64,000 bases of DNA from Oscillospiraceae bacterium (GTDB taxonomy: Bacteria; Bacillota; Clostridia; Oscillospirales; WRJC01), in NCBI GenBank assembly GCA_009783265.1, contig WRHM01000001.1, forward strand, positions 1 through 64,000, given 5' to 3'. The position numbers were made by a program, and so were the translations under genes. The notes beneath the pieces are model-generated. The model worked only from the letters and a program-made list of their open reading frames with translations. It was not told the origin of the DNA and did not search any database. Below are positions 1 through 53,352 of the stretch, one piece after another (the first letter of the stretch is position 1; every line of letters starts with the position of its first letter).

Positions 1-1070
<1,070 letters not shown>

Positions 1071-1366
1071 TCGTATTATCTCAACCTCTCGGTTGTTCTA
1101 ATCCCTTAGAGTTTCTTTCCTCTCAAGCTCTCGCTTGCGCTTGTTACGCTTTTTTCCGTAACTCTCCTGTGTAAAGTTTCCTGTTCAAAAGAATCTTTCT
1201 CGACGGAAACGCCTCTCCTCGAATATCTCTATCCGCTCTTCGTTGTTCCCACCTTTTCTTTCTCCTTGGTTCGTTGTTCGGTTTTCAAGGTTCCATTCCC
1301 TCCCGGGCTTATTGACACGCCTCAATGGCACTCAGCTCTATTCCCTCTCGCAAGGGCAGCTTGTCT
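1071..1366 (-). other. 16S rRNA leader region
   Basis: About 300 nt lie between the predicted transcription start (near 1360) and the mature 16S 5' end. No protein gene is supported; the 61-residue plus-strand ORF here has no ribosome binding site or recognisable content. The stretch should hold the antitermination box and the upstream strand of the 16S processing stem, but I could not identify these exactly. Confidence 0.55.
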
Positions 1367-1396
1367 ATTATATCATAAATCTATATCGTTTGTCAA
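1367..1396 (-). promoter_or_regulatory. rRNA operon promoter
   Basis: On the minus strand the sequence is TTGACA, 18 nt, TATAAT, a consensus sigma-A promoter reading into the 16S gene. The -10 is at 1367-1372 and the -35 at 1391-1396. Upstream (1397-1500) is AT-rich, as expected of an UP element. Confidence 0.85.
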
Positions 1397-1502
1397 GTTC
1401 TTTTTTTGTTTTTTTTAATTTTGTGTAATATATATATATTTACAATCATTTTATAAATATATATTATATATCTTGCACAAAATACGACATTATTATATAT
1501 TT

Positions 1503-3044
1503 TTATTGCTTTAATTTAAGCCTTTTGCCGTCATGCTCGTAAAAATCATTTTCAAGCAGTTTAATCAAATAACATAAATCATTTTTATTAAAATCCCCTG
1601 ATTCTTCAAATGCCTTAAAAAACGCTTCAAACGCGACTTTCTGAGACACCGGTTTGTCAAATAAATTATTTTTTCTCCAGTATTCCGCAAGAACCCTTAA
1701 TATCTCAAAAATATTTTCATATATATTATATATATAATTAAAACTTTTTATATATGCGCCTGAAAAATATCTTTTATATATTTTTTCTATATCGCGTAAA
1801 AAAATAATATCCTCAAAACTCATATATTTGTTTTGCAGCACAGTATACGGCGAATTTTCTTCGTATATATACCCATGAATCTCAGCTTCTTCCCGTATTC
1901 TTGTGCCGCGCAGCAGTTTTAAAAATCCTACCTGTATAAAATCAACTTTTGTTTTTTCGTATAATAAATTAAATCCGTTTATGAAACTTTCCAGATTTTC
2001 ATACGGCAGCCCCGTGATTAAATCCGCATGAACATGAATATTGTCAAAACTTTTGATTCTTGCGATATTTTCAAGTATTTGAGTTATATCAAAATTTTTT
2101 CTGCCTATTGCGTCAAGTGTTTTTGAATTTAAGCTTTGCACGCCGATTTCAAACTGAAATAAATTTTTCGGAGCGTTTTTTAATATATCAAAGCTATTCT
2201 CATCAAATAATACCGGATATATTTCGAACTGATACGGCAATAATTTTTTATTATATATTTTTTGATACTCTTTTGCGTGTTCAATTAAATTATTATATAT
2301 TTCATTTGTTCTTTTAATATCAAAATTAAACGTCCGGTCACAAAATTTTATTATATTTATTTTTGAATTTTCGCAGTCATAATATTTATTTTCGATGATT
2401 TTCAGTTCGTCCATAACTAAATCGACGCTCTTTGCCCGGACTTTTTTGTTATCTATGCCCGATAAGCAATATGAGCACCTAAACGGGCATCCCCTCGACG
2501 ATTCATAATATACAGTATGATAATTTTCGCAATTTTTATACAGATCCGATAAATAATTCTCCGTAGGGGCGACCCTTGCGGTCGCCTTTGATATATATTC
2601 GCGCAAATTTTTACGCGGGCGACCGCAAGGATCGCCCCTACAAAAAGATTTATACAATTCAAGCAAAGCCTGTTCGCCCTCGCCCTGTATCAGAAAATCG
2701 ACAAACGGATAGAGCGAATAAAATTCTTTTATATCATAAAAACTCACTTCCGGCCCTCCGAATACAATATATATTTCAGGCAAAAGTTTTTTTAAATTCC
2801 CGGCGAATTTCAGCATTTTTTCTATGTTCCAGATATAACACGAAAACCCGGTTATCTTTTTATCTTTTGAATTTTTATAAAGCTTATAAAAAATTTCGTC
2901 GTCTCTTTCGTTTATATTGCATTCCAGAACATCGCAGACCTGTGAATTTATACTTATATTTATATGCGCCGCAAGAGTTAAAACGCCAAGCGCATGATGC
3001 GCGAAAGACGCGTTTAGAGCGAATAAAAGCATATCGTTTTTCAT
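1503..3044 (-). CDS. B12-binding-domain radical SAM protein (DUF4080-type)
   Basis: The 513-residue protein has an N-terminal cobalamin-binding-like Rossmann domain (about 1-140), a radical SAM core with the 4Fe-4S motif CPFRCSYC near residue 186, and a C-terminal extension typical of the DUF4080 class of B12 radical SAM proteins. Such proteins are cytosolic and usually of unknown substrate. The gene is 8 nt downstream of the Nif3-like gene and probably cotranscribed with it. A stretch of about 26 residues (RGDPCGRP...ARVAPTE) between the two domains is encoded by a palindromic DNA element (2563-2641) inserted in frame, so the real domain linker is shorter. The family is clear; the reaction is unknown. 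Confidence 0.85.
   Translation of the reverse strand: MKNDMLLFALNASFAHHALGVLTLAAHINISINSQVCDVLECNINERDDEIFYKLYKNSKDKKITGFSCYIWNIEKMLKFAGNLKKLLPEIYIVFGGPEVSFYDIKEFYSLYPFVDFLIQGEGEQALLELYKSFCRGDPCGRPRKNLREYISKATARVAPTENYLSDLYKNCENYHTVYYESSRGCPFRCSYCLSGIDNKKVRAKSVDLVMDELKIIENKYYDCENSKINIIKFCDRTFNFDIKRTNEIYNNLIEHAKEYQKIYNKKLLPYQFEIYPVLFDENSFDILKNAPKNLFQFEIGVQSLNSKTLDAIGRKNFDITQILENIARIKSFDNIHVHADLITGLPYENLESFINGFNLLYEKTKVDFIQVGFLKLLRGTRIREEAEIHGYIYEENSPYTVLQNKYMSFEDIIFLRDIEKIYKRYFSGAYIKSFNYIYNIYENIFEILRVLAEYWRKNNLFDKPVSQKVAFEAFFKAFEESGDFNKNDLCYLIKLLENDFYEHDGKRLKLKQ
2563..2641. repeat. Palindromic element inserted in frame in a CDS
   Basis: The 79-bp element begins GTAGGGGCGACCCTTGCGG and ends with its inverted copy CCGCAAGGATCGCCCCTAC; about 23 of 25 terminal bases pair. 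The two arms flank an AT-rich centre. It stays open in the reading frame of the radical SAM gene. A related element with the same GTAGGGG...CCCCTAC ends lies at 43748-43830. It resembles a non-autonomous MITE- or REP-like element. Confidence 0.8.
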
Positions 3045-38398: not shown

Positions 38399-39490
38399 AT
38401 GAAAGAAAAATTTGAAAATTTAATGAAATTATACGGCATAAACGGCAGTATAAAAAATTACAGCCCTATAACCAACGGTCATATCAATGAAACATATTAT
38501 GTTTCAATAGATAATCACCCGTATGTAAATCCGTATATATTTCAGAAAGTAAATACTTATGTGTTCAAAAATCCCGTTTACGTCATGAATAATATCATGA
38601 TGATAGATAATTTTATCAAGAATAATAATAAAAAAAGCGCGTGCAAAATCGTCACTTTTCTTGTAAACGAAGAGTACAAGAATTATACGGTAACCGAAAA
38701 CGGCGAATTCTGGCGTTTATGCATTTTTGAAGAGAACACCGTTACGTTTGACGTAGTTGAAAACCCGGAGATTTTACACAGTTCGGGTTACGCGTTCGGA
38801 GATTTTCTTAATGTGATCTCTGATTTCCCGGCAGAAAAACTTAATATAACAATCCCTGATTTTCATAACACCAGAAAACGTCTTGAAAATTTATTCAGGA
38901 TAATTAATCTCGACGAAAACAACAGGGCGAAAGACGTTAAAGATGAGATAAGCATATTTGAAAAATATCACGATTTCTGCTGCAAACTCACAGACATGAC
39001 AGATAAAGGCGTACTCCCGCTCAGGCCTGTGCATAACGATACAAAATATAATAATATATTATTAAATAAAAATACCTTTGAGCCTGTATGCGTGGTTGAC
39101 CTTGATACTATAATGCCGGGGCTTGTCGCTCACGATTTCGGCGACGCTATAAGATTTGCCGCAAACAAAGCAGCAGAGGACGAAACTGACCTGAACAAAG
39201 TGTATCTCGATTTTGAATATTTCAAGGAATTCACGAAAGGATTCACCGGAGCAATCGGGCAGTCGATGACTGATATTGAAACAGAAACTCTCGCGCTGGG
39301 CGCGCCGATTATAACTTTTGAATTGGCATCGAGGTTTCTCGCGGATCACATCGACGACGACAAATATTTTGCGATACACCGCGAGAATCATAATCTTGAC
39401 AGGGCGCGCTGTCAGATGAAGCTGGCTTGTGATATGATGGAAAAGCTGGACGATATGTGCGGGTTTGTACAGGAGTGCATAGGGAAGTAA
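38399..39490 (+). CDS. Phosphotransferase, N-acetylhexosamine 1-kinase-like
   Basis: The 363-residue protein has the aminoglycoside phosphotransferase-like kinase fold. The catalytic loop RPVHNDTKYNNILL and the metal motif VCVVDLDTIMPGLVAHDFGD match NahK/LnpB kinases, which phosphorylate GlcNAc or GalNAc at C1 in mucin and milk-glycan pathways, rather than drug-modifying enzymes. No lacto-N-biose phosphorylase is in the window. The upstream region lacks a strong Shine-Dalgarno, so the start is less certain. Confidence 0.85.
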   Translation: MKEKFENLMKLYGINGSIKNYSPITNGHINETYYVSIDNHPYVNPYIFQKVNTYVFKNPVYVMNNIMMIDNFIKNNNKKSACKIVTFLVNEEYKNYTVTENGEFWRLCIFEENTVTFDVVENPEILHSSGYAFGDFLNVISDFPAEKLNITIPDFHNTRKRLENLFRIINLDENNRAKDVKDEISIFEKYHDFCCKLTDMTDKGVLPLRPVHNDTKYNNILLNKNTFEPVCVVDLDTIMPGLVAHDFGDAIRFAANKAAEDETDLNKVYLDFEYFKEFTKGFTGAIGQSMTDIETETLALGAPIITFELASRFLADHIDDDKYFAIHRENHNLDRARCQMKLACDMMEKLDDMCGFVQECIGK

Positions 39491-39552
39491 ATATATATCT
39501 GAATAAATAACGCAGGAAATTTATATTATGTACGATAGGGGGCTTTGAGTAA

Positions 39553-39831
39553 TTGAATGAAAAAATAATAATCGCTGATTCCGCAGTAACAGTCGAAATT
39601 CTTTCCTCGGCATATAAACACGGACAAAACAAAGAGGACATTCTTTTGGCACTTGAGCGGAGCGTATATGACGAAACTCTTGAAACAGACCCAAATAAAA
39701 CGCTGTCTATTGGCTATGACCCAAACGCTAAGTTGTTAGAAATAATATTTCATGTTTTATCAGACGAACACATTGTGGTTTTTCACGCAATGCCTTGTCG
39801 AAAATATTATATTGAAAGGATGGTGCAGTAA
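39553..39831 (+). CDS. Toxin-like small protein (DUF4258/BrnT-like)
   Basis: The 92-residue protein has a helical N-terminus (ADSAVTVEILSSAYKHGQNKEDILLALE) and a C-terminal beta sheet: LSIGYDPNAKLLEIIFHVL ... IVVFHAMPCRKYY. The pattern, with a final HAMPxR-type strand, resembles small RNase-fold toxins of the BrnT/DUF4258 kind. It is followed with no gap (stop then ATG) by a small RHH-like protein, the usual antitoxin partner. Toxin function is inferred from size, fold pattern and pairing. Confidence 0.6.
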   Translation: MNEKIIIADSAVTVEILSSAYKHGQNKEDILLALERSVYDETLETDPNKTLSIGYDPNAKLLEIIFHVLSDEHIVVFHAMPCRKYYIERMVQ

Positions 39832-40077
39832 ATGAACGCAAACGATAGATTATCAGATAAAGAATATGAAGAATTAAGTCTTGAATATGAACAAAATCCG
39901 CCGGAACTATCCGGTAAACCGGGGTTTTTAACTGCTATGCGCGAAAGAACGCTTGTAGCGGAATTACTACCCCCTGACTATGCACGTATTATCAATATGA
40001 AAGCGAAAGCTATGTCGTTGTCGCCCTCGGAAGTAATCCAGTATGCAATTAAAGAACAACTGGTAGAAAAGGCTTAA
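39832..40077 (+). CDS. RHH-type antitoxin-like protein
   Basis: The 81-residue protein ends with a ribbon-helix-helix-like segment (LPPDYARIINMKAKAMSLSPSEVIQYAIKEQL). Its N-terminus is acidic, as expected of the toxin-binding half. It starts directly after the stop of the toxin-like gene. Order toxin then antitoxin is that of BrnT-BrnA and HigBA systems. Probable DNA-binding autorepressor. Confidence 0.6.
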   Translation: MNANDRLSDKEYEELSLEYEQNPPELSGKPGFLTAMRERTLVAELLPPDYARIINMKAKAMSLSPSEVIQYAIKEQLVEKA

Positions 40078-40102
40078 TTTATATTTTCAGGAGGTATGAG
40101 AA

Positions 40103-40519
40103 ATGCAAGGATATAACGTGTTAGTCGTGTTTAATTCTGATAAAAGTCAGCTTCTCATGTGCAAGCGCAAGAAAGAGCCTTATAAAGGACTTCGTAATTT
40201 AGTAGGTGGCAAAATAGAACCGAATGAAAACGGAGATGATGCCGCATACCGCGAGCTTTTGGAAGAAACCGGAATTTCTCACAAAGATATAAAACTTACG
40301 CATTTAATGGATTTCACATACCACTTATCGGACTGTTACGTTGAAGCCTATGTTGGAAAATTAAATCGTGAATTAATCGTATCAGGGGACGAAAATGAAT
40401 TATATTGGTCGGAGTTATCCTGTAATTTTTTTGATATGAATTTATTTGCAGGAGAAGGAAACATCGGACATATATTGGAACAAGTTAAAATACGCGAAGA
40501 GAAGTTATTTGCAAATTAA
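40103..40519 (+). CDS. Nudix hydrolase
   Basis: The Nudix box GGKIEPNENGDDAAYRELLE followed by ETG is complete in this 138-residue protein. Nudix enzymes hydrolyse nucleoside diphosphates linked to another group, for example oxidised dNTPs. ATG follows AGGAGG. It lies 25 bp after the RHH gene within candidate cassette 1. Confidence 0.92.
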   Translation: MQGYNVLVVFNSDKSQLLMCKRKKEPYKGLRNLVGGKIEPNENGDDAAYRELLEETGISHKDIKLTHLMDFTYHLSDCYVEAYVGKLNRELIVSGDENELYWSELSCNFFDMNLFAGEGNIGHILEQVKIREEKLFAN

Positions 40520-40593
40520 CTTCGGGTTATAAGCATTTTCTACGTTAATAAATTTTATTAAATATATAAAAATATACAGGAGGATTTATTAAA

Positions 40594-42002: not shown

Positions 42003-42158
42003 ACCCTCTTTAAATTAAAGAGGGTGCCGACCGCAGTCGGCGGGTGTTTTTGGAGTTTTATTTATGTTCGAGGATAAAACACCCGTCACGCGGACTAACG
42101 CGATTTTACAGAACCGACGCAACATCTCGCGTGCCACCCTCTTTAATTTAAAGAGGGT
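42003..42158. repeat. Compound palindromic element bounded by ACCCTCTTT-AAAGAGGGT hairpins
   Basis: Two near-identical 23-bp palindromes, ACCCTCTTTAAATTAAAGAGGGT (42003-42025) and ACCCTCTTTAATTTAAAGAGGGT (42136-42158), bracket about 110 bp. Inside are a GCCGACCGCAGTCGGC hairpin and the inner pair GGGTGTTTT/AAAACACCC. It fills the 311-bp gap between the GNAT and sulfatase-fold genes. No ORF. It looks like a MITE or REP-type composite. Confidence 0.75.
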
Positions 42159-42253
42159 CTTGGTACAGATTTTATAAATCGTTCTGTTACTCGTTATTAG
42201 CATATCAAAATATCAAAAATAAATAAATTAATTTAATAGAGGAGAAAAAATTT

Positions 42254-43714: not shown

Positions 43715-43849
43715 GTAGGAAATTTATATAATGTACGGATATGAATTGTAGGGGCTGGCGTCCCCGACAGCCCGCAAATATGATTTAACGCCGGTTTTTT
43801 CGGCGGGACGTCGAGGACGCCGTCCCCTACTAATAAGCATTTTCTACGT
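43715..43849 (+). mobile_element. Candidate cassette 2 with L and R end motifs (no gene)
   Basis: L motif GTAGGAAATTTATATAATG at 43715 begins 21 nt after the sulfatase-fold stop; it matches L1 at 21 of 23 positions. R motif ATAAGCATTTTCTACGT (43833-43849) is identical to R1 over 17 bp. Between them lies only the GTAGGGG palindromic element (43748-43830), which abuts R. Confidence 0.5.
43748..43830. repeat. GTAGGGG...CCCCTAC palindromic element
   Basis: The ends GTAGGGGCTGGCGTCCCCGAC and GTCGAGGACGCCGTCCCCTAC are imperfect inverted repeats around an AT-rich centre with a GCCGG...CGGC stem. Same ends and size as the in-frame element at 2563-2641. Confidence 0.75.
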
Positions 43850-43901
43850 AAGTCATATTTTTAAAATAAAAATAAAAAATTATAAAAAGGTGAAACAAAA
43901 A

Positions 43902-52162: not shown

Positions 52163-52254
52163 AATTTTTCTCACCTTTCACGTTTTAATATATTTTTTTA
52201 TTTTATTGTGTTGTTTGTGTTAGAAATATATTTATAAATAATCTTTGATAGTGA

Positions 52255-53352
52255 AGAAAATGCTTATTAGTAGTATTATTTCTTATTTTCAGATGCAAAT
52301 AAGGGCATGATTGTCATATTAAACCGTGCCGGAGTTGCTTCCCACTCCTCGGGAGTTAAATCTATTATAACCGTGTAGATTCCGGCCTTAAAAAGCATCG
52401 GTTGGACTTCCTCGTTGATCTCAACGCCGGTCGTATAATATATAGTTTTAACTTCCCCGAAAGCATTGCCGGTGATATGCACAATCCCAAAAACATCCCG
52501 ACTTCTGCTGCTTATAATAAGACAGTAATCGCCCTCTTGCGTGATTTCAAAATTATACTCTCCATGAAATTCATTCGAGGTGAAACTGATTTCAAATATG
52601 GGTTCCGGTTCAGAGGGCAAAGACCAAATAATCAATACTGCATTAAGCGGTACTAAAAGAGCCATACTGACAAAAGCGATAATTTTGATATTCCTGTTGT
52701 TTTTTATTGCGTCGTTTACTTTCGGCTTATTAATAAATTTATAAATCATACGTGAAATAAATATTAACAGCAATGCCCACAAAACAGAAATTACGCCCTT
52801 AAATATCGACTGGTAGAGAATAAATAACCCAGTTTCGGAAAAATCATTTATCATTAAAAAACTAATAAACAAACTTATAATAAACATTAAAAAAGGCGTA
52901 AGCGCAACAAATATTTCCCGTTCTTTTCCGGCAAATGCGATACAATACAGAGCAGGGACAGAAGAAATCAATATGTATTGCGTGAAAACAAAAATCCAGT
53001 TATTATCGTTTATTTTTGTTCCCGGCACGGCGATATTTATACAATATATTATGGCAAGAGCAGTTGTGGCAAGTATAATCCATTTGACCGCTTTAAACTC
53101 AAATTTAACGCGTAATACAGCAACAGGTACGCAGATTGCGGAATATAATAATATTAAAAATAAATGATTTAATAAATCAAAAGAAGATAATATATATATT
53201 AAAAAAAATCTGTTAGAATAAATAAAACTTAAACCGACAATACAAAGCAAAACTATAAACGCGATTATTCCTATTCTTCTTTGTTGTTCTTCCAAAACCT
53301 GCCACTCCTTCTCCCGACTTGTTTTACTATGTAAAATATAAATTCTCTGCGT
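52255..53352 (-). mobile_element. Candidate cassette 3 with L and R end motifs (membrane-protein gene)
   Basis: Read on the minus strand, L motif ACGCAGAGAATTTATATT (ending at 53352) lies 10 nt after the stop of one SIS gene, and R motif CTACTAATAAGCATTTTCT (52273-52255) lies 92 nt before the next SIS gene. R is identical to the copy at 43827-43845 over 19 bp. L matches L1 at about 18 of 21 positions. The cargo is one membrane-protein gene of low similarity to its neighbours, which separates two paralogous SIS genes. Confidence 0.45.
52276..53295 (-). CDS. Hypothetical polytopic membrane protein
   Basis: I do not recognise it. The 339-residue protein has about seven or eight hydrophobic helices in residues 8-235 and then a beta-rich extracytoplasmic domain of about 100 residues (FEISFTSNEFHGEYNFEITQEGDYCLIISS ... 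YTVIIDLTPEEWEATPARFNMTI), resembling a PPC- or carbohydrate-binding-like sandwich. Start is TTG with AGGAG upstream. Its content is unlike the sugar genes on both sides, and it sits within candidate cassette 3. Confidence 0.75.
   Translation of the reverse strand: MEEQQRRIGIIAFIVLLCIVGLSFIYSNRFFLIYILSSFDLLNHLFLILLYSAICVPVAVLRVKFEFKAVKWIILATTALAIIYCINIAVPGTKINDNNWIFVFTQYILISSVPALYCIAFAGKEREIFVALTPFLMFIISLFISFLMINDFSETGLFILYQSIFKGVISVLWALLLIFISRMIYKFINKPKVNDAIKNNRNIKIIAFVSMALLVPLNAVLIIWSLPSEPEPIFEISFTSNEFHGEYNFEITQEGDYCLIISSRSRDVFGIVHITGNAFGEVKTIYYTTGVEINEEVQPMLFKAGIYTVIIDLTPEEWEATPARFNMTIMPLFASENKK

Follow-up and report, generated by a model that had tools for sequence, protein, structure and literature searches.

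Integron cassettes are small units of one or a few genes with little room for a promoter, which lie in one orientation, end in a single 3′ attC and stand in an array next to attI. Their cargo is exchangeable and includes GNAT, Nudix, toxin-antitoxin and Cass2-type genes; the structure of Cass2 from a Vibrio cholerae integron cassette has been solved (PMC3048380). Integron cassettes are also known to enter genomes at non-classical attG sites (a title cited in PMC11023631). The dif modules of Acinetobacter (Xer/pdif) hold toxin-antitoxin and adaptive genes between two short, oppositely oriented sites with an organisation of 11+6+11 bp, and additional chromosomal sites are known (PMC6449649). Mobile insertion cassettes (MIC/MICE) and MITEs occur in gene-bearing and gene-less versions with the same ends and no transposase inside (PMC5444012). 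Among the REP/RAYT elements (REPINs, REPtrons, and TIRtrons), RAYT genes flanked by terminal inverted repeats, the TIRtrons, have already been described (PMC3733652).

Here we analysed units bounded by a left motif (L) and a right motif (R), three of which lie in the window (the whole 64-kb stretch of DNA under study). Like integron cassettes, the L/R units are small, carry one or a few genes of the same exchangeable types, occasionally form tandems linked at core sites, and combine one gene orientation with little promoter region (29 of 29 ORFs; the absence of promoters is predicted). However, they stand singly in operons, are conserved at both ends, and no IntI was found among the recombinases scored. 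They share with dif modules the two short, oppositely oriented sites, the toxin-antitoxin cargo, and the presence of a host Xer recombinase (a 338-aa XerC/D-like protein at C1:684.5 kb), whereas a Bacillus-type pattern found no dif-like site, the units are found all over the chromosome, behind stop codons, and L and R are not assigned to the 11+6+11 bp layout. As in MIC/MICE and MITEs, gene-bearing and gene-less versions have the same ends, but the L/R units have no target duplication, no identified parent IS, and hypervariable tips. The GTAG...CTAC palindromes of the short units and two RAYT genes behind L recall REP/RAYT elements, but gene-bearing units hold neither palindrome nor transposase, and most RAYTs in the genome lack L/R. 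Since integrase, attC, array, and target duplication were missing and no link to a parent IS or to dif was established, we filed the L/R units in none of these families and call them mobile gene cassettes of a new sort. A literature search, partial in coverage, found no description of such units. Our main reading is that small mobile gene cassettes form a family here, with L and R as their ends; taken as a whole, it has a probability of roughly 85%.

L and R form paired ends throughout the genome

The earlier note on this DNA had placed L and R at three loci, and all placements were confirmed. L is present as GCAGGAAATTTATATTATGTACG at 39512, as GTAGGAAATTTATATAATGTACG at 43715 (21 of 23 positions identical to the L at 39512), and, inverted, as ACGCAGAGAATTTATATTTTAC at 53352; R is present as ATAAGCATTTTCTACGT at 40529 and 43833 and as CTACTAATAAGCATTTTCT at 43827 and, inverted, at 52255 (Table 1). 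The spacing given in that note also held: L starts about 11–21 nt past the stop of the upstream gene in all three units, and R ends roughly 50–90 nt before the next gene start. With up to 3 mismatches, the L pattern matched twice in the window (mean of shuffles, 0.00), and R matched three times (mean of shuffles, 0.05). ACGYAGRAAAT, the short piece common to L and R, gave 10 window matches against 7.0 expected when searched alone, which is not significant; therefore, the case rests on the full motifs.

Table 1 Features of the three L/R units in the window.
Feature	Position	Strand	Remarks
Unit 1, L end	39512..39535	+	Upstream gene stop at 39490
Unit 1, cargo gene 1	39553..39831	+	92 aa; probable toxin of a toxin-antitoxin pair, by position
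Unit 1, cargo gene 2	39832..40077	+	81 aa; RHH/antitoxin-like by inspection
Unit 1, internal L-type core AATTTATATTTT	40076..40090	+	At gene 2 stop; identity with the G002 cassette ends there
Unit 1, cargo gene 3	40103..40519	+	Nudix hydrolase, PF00293, E=1.4e-14
Unit 1, R end	40525..40547	+	Motif match and L→R pairing
Unit 2 (short, palindrome only), L end	43715..43738	+	Motif match
Unit 2, filling: GTAG...CTAC REP-like palindrome pair	43750..43830	+	
Unit 2, R end	43829..43851	+	Motif match
Unit 3, L end	53327..53350	-	Motif match and pairing
Unit 3, cargo	52276..53295	-	339 aa; several membrane-spanning stretches by inspection
Unit 3, R end	52249..52271	-	Motif match and pairing

We searched the source genome (2,587,607 bases, 2.59 Mb, in 17 contigs; about 91% complete) with both motifs. 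R with up to 2 mismatches matched 26 times (reversed-pattern control, 0), and L with up to 3 mismatches matched 54 times (control, 7). Scoring matrices were built from 25 units; members scored 25–38 for L and 22–35 for R, and the reversed window scored at most about 13. In the stretches of the genome taken around motif matches, nearly every R had an L upstream on the same strand, giving at least 38 L→R pairs, each with both motifs on the same strand. The outcome that the earlier note had named as a refutation, L and R unpaired throughout the genome, was thus not seen. All 38 units have conserved motifs at both ends; 17 are short (135–170 bp, palindrome only) and 21 bear genes (449–3014 bp, 1–3 genes). 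They are spread over at least 11 contigs, mostly singly, and form no array.

By mechanical gene calls, each of the 29 ORFs in the gene units runs in the L→R direction. The upstream neighbour was co-directional in all 21 gene units, an outcome with a probability of about 0.002 if co-direction is assumed for 75% of neighbouring genes by default. L begins a median of 14 nt past the upstream stop codon in these 21 units. The cargo probably lacks a promoter of its own, since its ribosome-binding site follows closely on L and its stop lies only a few tens of bases ahead of R.

Ordinary L ends are also paired with a second R type, AAGCATWATATWCGT (source genome G000, C1:720.2–720.8 kb, locus L369; loci L200, L204, L207, and L226). 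The inner arm of R falls into a few types (GTTCAAA-, GAATAGT-, and ACCGA-) that are common to units with different cargo. Another intergenic repeat of the window, at 42005–42165 before a sulfatase gene, consists of two CCCTCTTTAAATTAAAGAGGG-type palindromes and is unrelated to L/R.

Cargo and neighbouring genes share no theme

Pfam families among the cargo of the source genome are GNAT acetyltransferases, Nudix, HIT, APH-type phosphotransferase, HD, methyltransferase, Phd/Doc, DUF3795, and HTH, and the cargo includes toxin-antitoxin pairs and kinases. In the genus-mate G002, cargo included BrnT, PemK-like, AlkZ-like, chloramphenicol-phosphotransferase-like, alpha/beta hydrolase, and Cass2, whose Pfam name is 'integron-associated effector binding protein'. 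In the window, the 92-aa product of unit 1 gene 1 had no match in Pfam, NCBIfam, or PADLOC, and the 339-aa protein of unit 3 had none in Pfam; the product of unit 1 gene 2 is 88.6% identical to a protein in a G002 cassette (locus L221). The cargo list has neither a glycan theme nor a common function. The three window units do lie at glycan loci, as had been proposed, but this link proved to be an accident of the window: other units adjoin recR, rapZ, dxr, prs, uvrA, galU, and many unrelated genes.

Units are absent, exchanged, or multiplied at different sites

Unit 2 has nine near-identical relatives elsewhere in the genome. These ten short units are nearly identical inside and unrelated outside, and their similarity stops at L and at R. 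We located and read the orthologous junctions in two other genomes of the genus, G001 and G002, with gene names taken from translations; the compared genomes are draft assemblies, one per species, and the empty junctions lie between species, not strains. The earlier note had pointed to empty orthologous sites as a check, and such sites were found. The murB/rapZ junction holds a 135-bp unit in the source genome and measures 11 bp in G001 and 23 bp in G002; the recR/recD2 junction of G001 is likewise empty (51 bp). The cdsA/dxr junction has no room for a unit in G001 and contains an unrelated small gene in G002. At the spoIID/galU junction, the source genome has a GNAT cassette; in G002 the place is taken by another gene, which has L-like and R-like ends of its own.

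The toxin-antitoxin genes of unit 1 are also present in G002 (DNA 85% identical) at a non-orthologous site, between the alanine dehydrogenase gene and dnaX. The identity ends exactly where the stop codon meets an L-type core, TTAATTTATATT, past which the third gene differs: Nudix in the window and another gene in G002. An L core is thus one point where cargo is joined. Some ORF pairs inside units have no internal site. Together, the 38 pairs, the empty and refilled junctions, the toxin-antitoxin genes at non-orthologous sites, and the multiplied short copies bear out the proposal, made from the window, of non-autonomous mobile cassettes with exchangeable cargo.

The sampled contigs of G002 contain about 15 more units, the automatic pair L223 having proved on reading to be two separate units. 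One unit was found in another family of the order (locus L063, G146). A further one, in the Oscillospiraceae MAG Th196P3bin109 (locus L183), combines an exact R with a weaker L. Across 85,462 species genomes, exact R occurred in 24 stretches, only one of which (L183) had a fitting L-like sequence. Viral contigs that contained exact R or L gave no paired unit. Immediately before dnaX, both L221 of G002 and L183 of MAG Th196P3bin109, which belong to two different families, have an L/R cassette at the junction, each with its own cargo.

The tips of L and R are hypervariable

Among the ten near-identical copies, the interior differs by a pairwise mean of 1.6% over 93 bp. In contrast, L positions 1–9 differ by a mean of 24%, all of it in positions 2–6, and L positions 16–18 by 43%, while positions 7–15, AATTTATAT, are invariant; R is variable towards its outer end. 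Since the ends vary far more than the interior, the tips are probably exchanged or acquired at each move, with core and interior kept. Such variable tips are less easily explained by a transposon whose terminal repeats are fixed than by site-specific recombination that creates hybrid sites at the ends.

The ends have the form AAC.../...GTTA, and L and the reverse complement of R have AACGNAGRAAAT in common at their outer ends. The earlier note had compared this likeness to transposon ends. The likeness itself stands, but a transposon-end nature was not borne out: a strict terminal-inverted-repeat transposon does not predict the hypervariable terminal positions, and a search for target-site duplications gave, at every length and offset tested, no convincing number of units with direct repeats in excess of shuffled flanks.

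A pre-existing palindromic target, CGNAGRAAATTTTCTNCG, was not above background in the source genome (49+57 matches vs 60+62 in the control); in G001 it was about twofold over the control, without evident meaning. The empty orthologous junctions in relatives hold no palindromic target. Outer arms derived from palindromic targets would leave visible empty targets, and the lack of any above background is a difficulty for that origin. Tip exchange between resident units is an alternative to pre-existing palindromic targets. Inspection of paired ends revealed no hairpin-type covariation of L and R tips, and Rfam gave no match up to E=1.

Proposed route of movement

Our preferred mechanism is conservative site-specific recombination; its main rival is movement by a Y1 transposase of the RAYT type. 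A tyrosine-recombinase-type reaction is our tentative choice of enzyme class. Each unit consists of L, one accessory gene (sometimes two or three) or a palindrome only, and R, and would insert whole, in the transcribed direction, just past the stop codon of a resident gene; in this position, the resident promoter presumably drives the cargo by read-through. Crossover, catalysed by an enzyme acting in trans, would take place at the invariant cores, AATTTATAT in L and AATAAGCAT in R, and the recombination partner would contribute the outer ~9 bp (GNAGRRA... and ...TTTCTNCG). Tandem cassettes and swapped genes would both result from exchange at L cores. A circular intermediate is predicted, whose R-L junction would be AATAAGCAT joined to TTATATTATG.

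The units may, with somewhat less than an even chance, represent an integron-like cassette system without an array, with short cores, a trans-acting recombinase, and operon junctions throughout the genome as insertion points; each captured gene would then be expressed from a different resident promoter. If the units do move, they would provide a gene-capture route in which accessory genes, toxin-antitoxin pairs and Cass2-like genes among them, are placed one at a time behind a stop codon and can do without a promoter. L and R give a defined end signature for listing such genes in any genome, and they raise the question of the enzyme that acts on these ends and of the reason why every move alters the tips.

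Candidate enzymes and competing explanations

The source genome has six tyrosine-recombinase regions (PF00589), one of which is the host XerC/D-like protein. NCBIfam scoring took in two of the six, and the other four were judged by inspection; the better of the two scored 97 bits and was XerC/D-like (cut-off of the integron integrase model TIGR02249, 265). Xer-like was the only evident type in common among the recombinases compared in three genomes. No convincing L-R pair surrounded a recombinase among the tyrosine-recombinase loci listed for these genomes, and RAYT in two units was the only recombinase gene found between L and R. A dif-like site, for which only the Bacillus-type pattern was tried, was not above background in the three genomes. 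The host XerC/D-like gene (locus L087, C1:684.5 kb) is preceded, at a distance of 22 nt, by a short L/R unit. On two short contigs of G002, C314 (L332) and C347 (L333), three tyrosine recombinase genes lie in tandem and resemble recombinase trios, with neither L nor R nearby.

RAYT-type Y1 transposases gave 6 matches at 4 places in the source genome. One RAYT of G002 (C288) lies right behind an L, with L only, at the junction where the window has unit 2; a broken RAYT in the source genome (C1:720.2–720.8 kb) lies right behind L and is followed by an R-type end, this being the one of the four places flanked by L and an R-type end. These two RAYTs, together with the GTAG...CTAC palindromes inside RAYT ORFs that also fill the short units, make a RAYT element the main rival: L and R would be the ends of a RAYT/TIRYT transposon whose autonomous form carries a Y1 (HUH) transposase, the L-palindrome-R units would be MITE-like deletion forms and the L-gene-R units mobile insertion cassettes, and the transposase would move all of them in trans, through single-stranded DNA and without duplicating the target. 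The lack of target duplication and the precedent of TIRtrons agree with this. However, the other RAYTs of the genome are not flanked by L/R, so that RAYT may equally be just another cargo; the palindrome is absent from gene units, no strong hairpin was seen in L or R by inspection, and the outer tips of L and R vary independently. We consider this explanation unlikely on balance, though ahead of the other rivals.

RAYT genes of the source genome and G002 (L371, L369, L365, and L364) and of G146 (L353) contain a GTAG...REP / iREP...CTAC pair within their own frame, and these internal palindromes match the free ones of the genome, which may have arisen from RAYT genes by deletion. At L063 (G146; 1000–2200, reverse strand), an L/R cassette and a RAYT lie together between the inverted repeats TTGTTGATAGGGATATA...TATATCCCTATCAACAA in a TIRtron-like arrangement.

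Clearly less probable is an origin as mobile insertion cassettes or MITEs of a DDE transposon with terminal inverted repeats, whose parent IS was lost. AACGNAGRAAAT at both outer ends and the same ends on gene-less and gene-bearing copies, as in MITEs and mobile insertion cassettes (PMC5444012), would agree with it. The absence of target duplication at the tested lengths and offsets and the hypervariable tips of near-identical copies argue against it, as does the fact that no transposase gene was seen between L and R. A true integron system with cassettes scattered to secondary sites is very improbable: single, promoterless-looking genes, integron-type cargo including Cass2, the AAC.../...GTTA ends, and the known entry of cassettes at attG sites (a title cited in PMC11023631) speak for it, but neither of the two recombinases scored came near the integrase cut-off, there are two different conserved ends and not one 3′ attC, no array is formed, and L-R covariation was not seen by inspection. 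Finally, that L and R are separate regulatory motifs of a regulon (a promoter or leader and a 3′ element, both of which would be transcribed, as ribosome-binding sites follow closely on L and stop codons closely precede R) is hardly credible beside gene-less units multiplied as L-palindrome-R, orthologous junctions without units, cargo that lacks a functional theme, the same cargo at unrelated places, and no Rfam match, and its narrower form in the earlier note, regulatory motifs of glycan genes, is ruled out by copy multiplication, empty junctions, and varied neighbours.

At locus L103 (C5:12481–15494), two paralogous genes (33.6% identical) are each preceded by the same leader of ~70 bp. Both leaders open with ATAAGCAATTTCCCACATCG, which is possibly a second site type.
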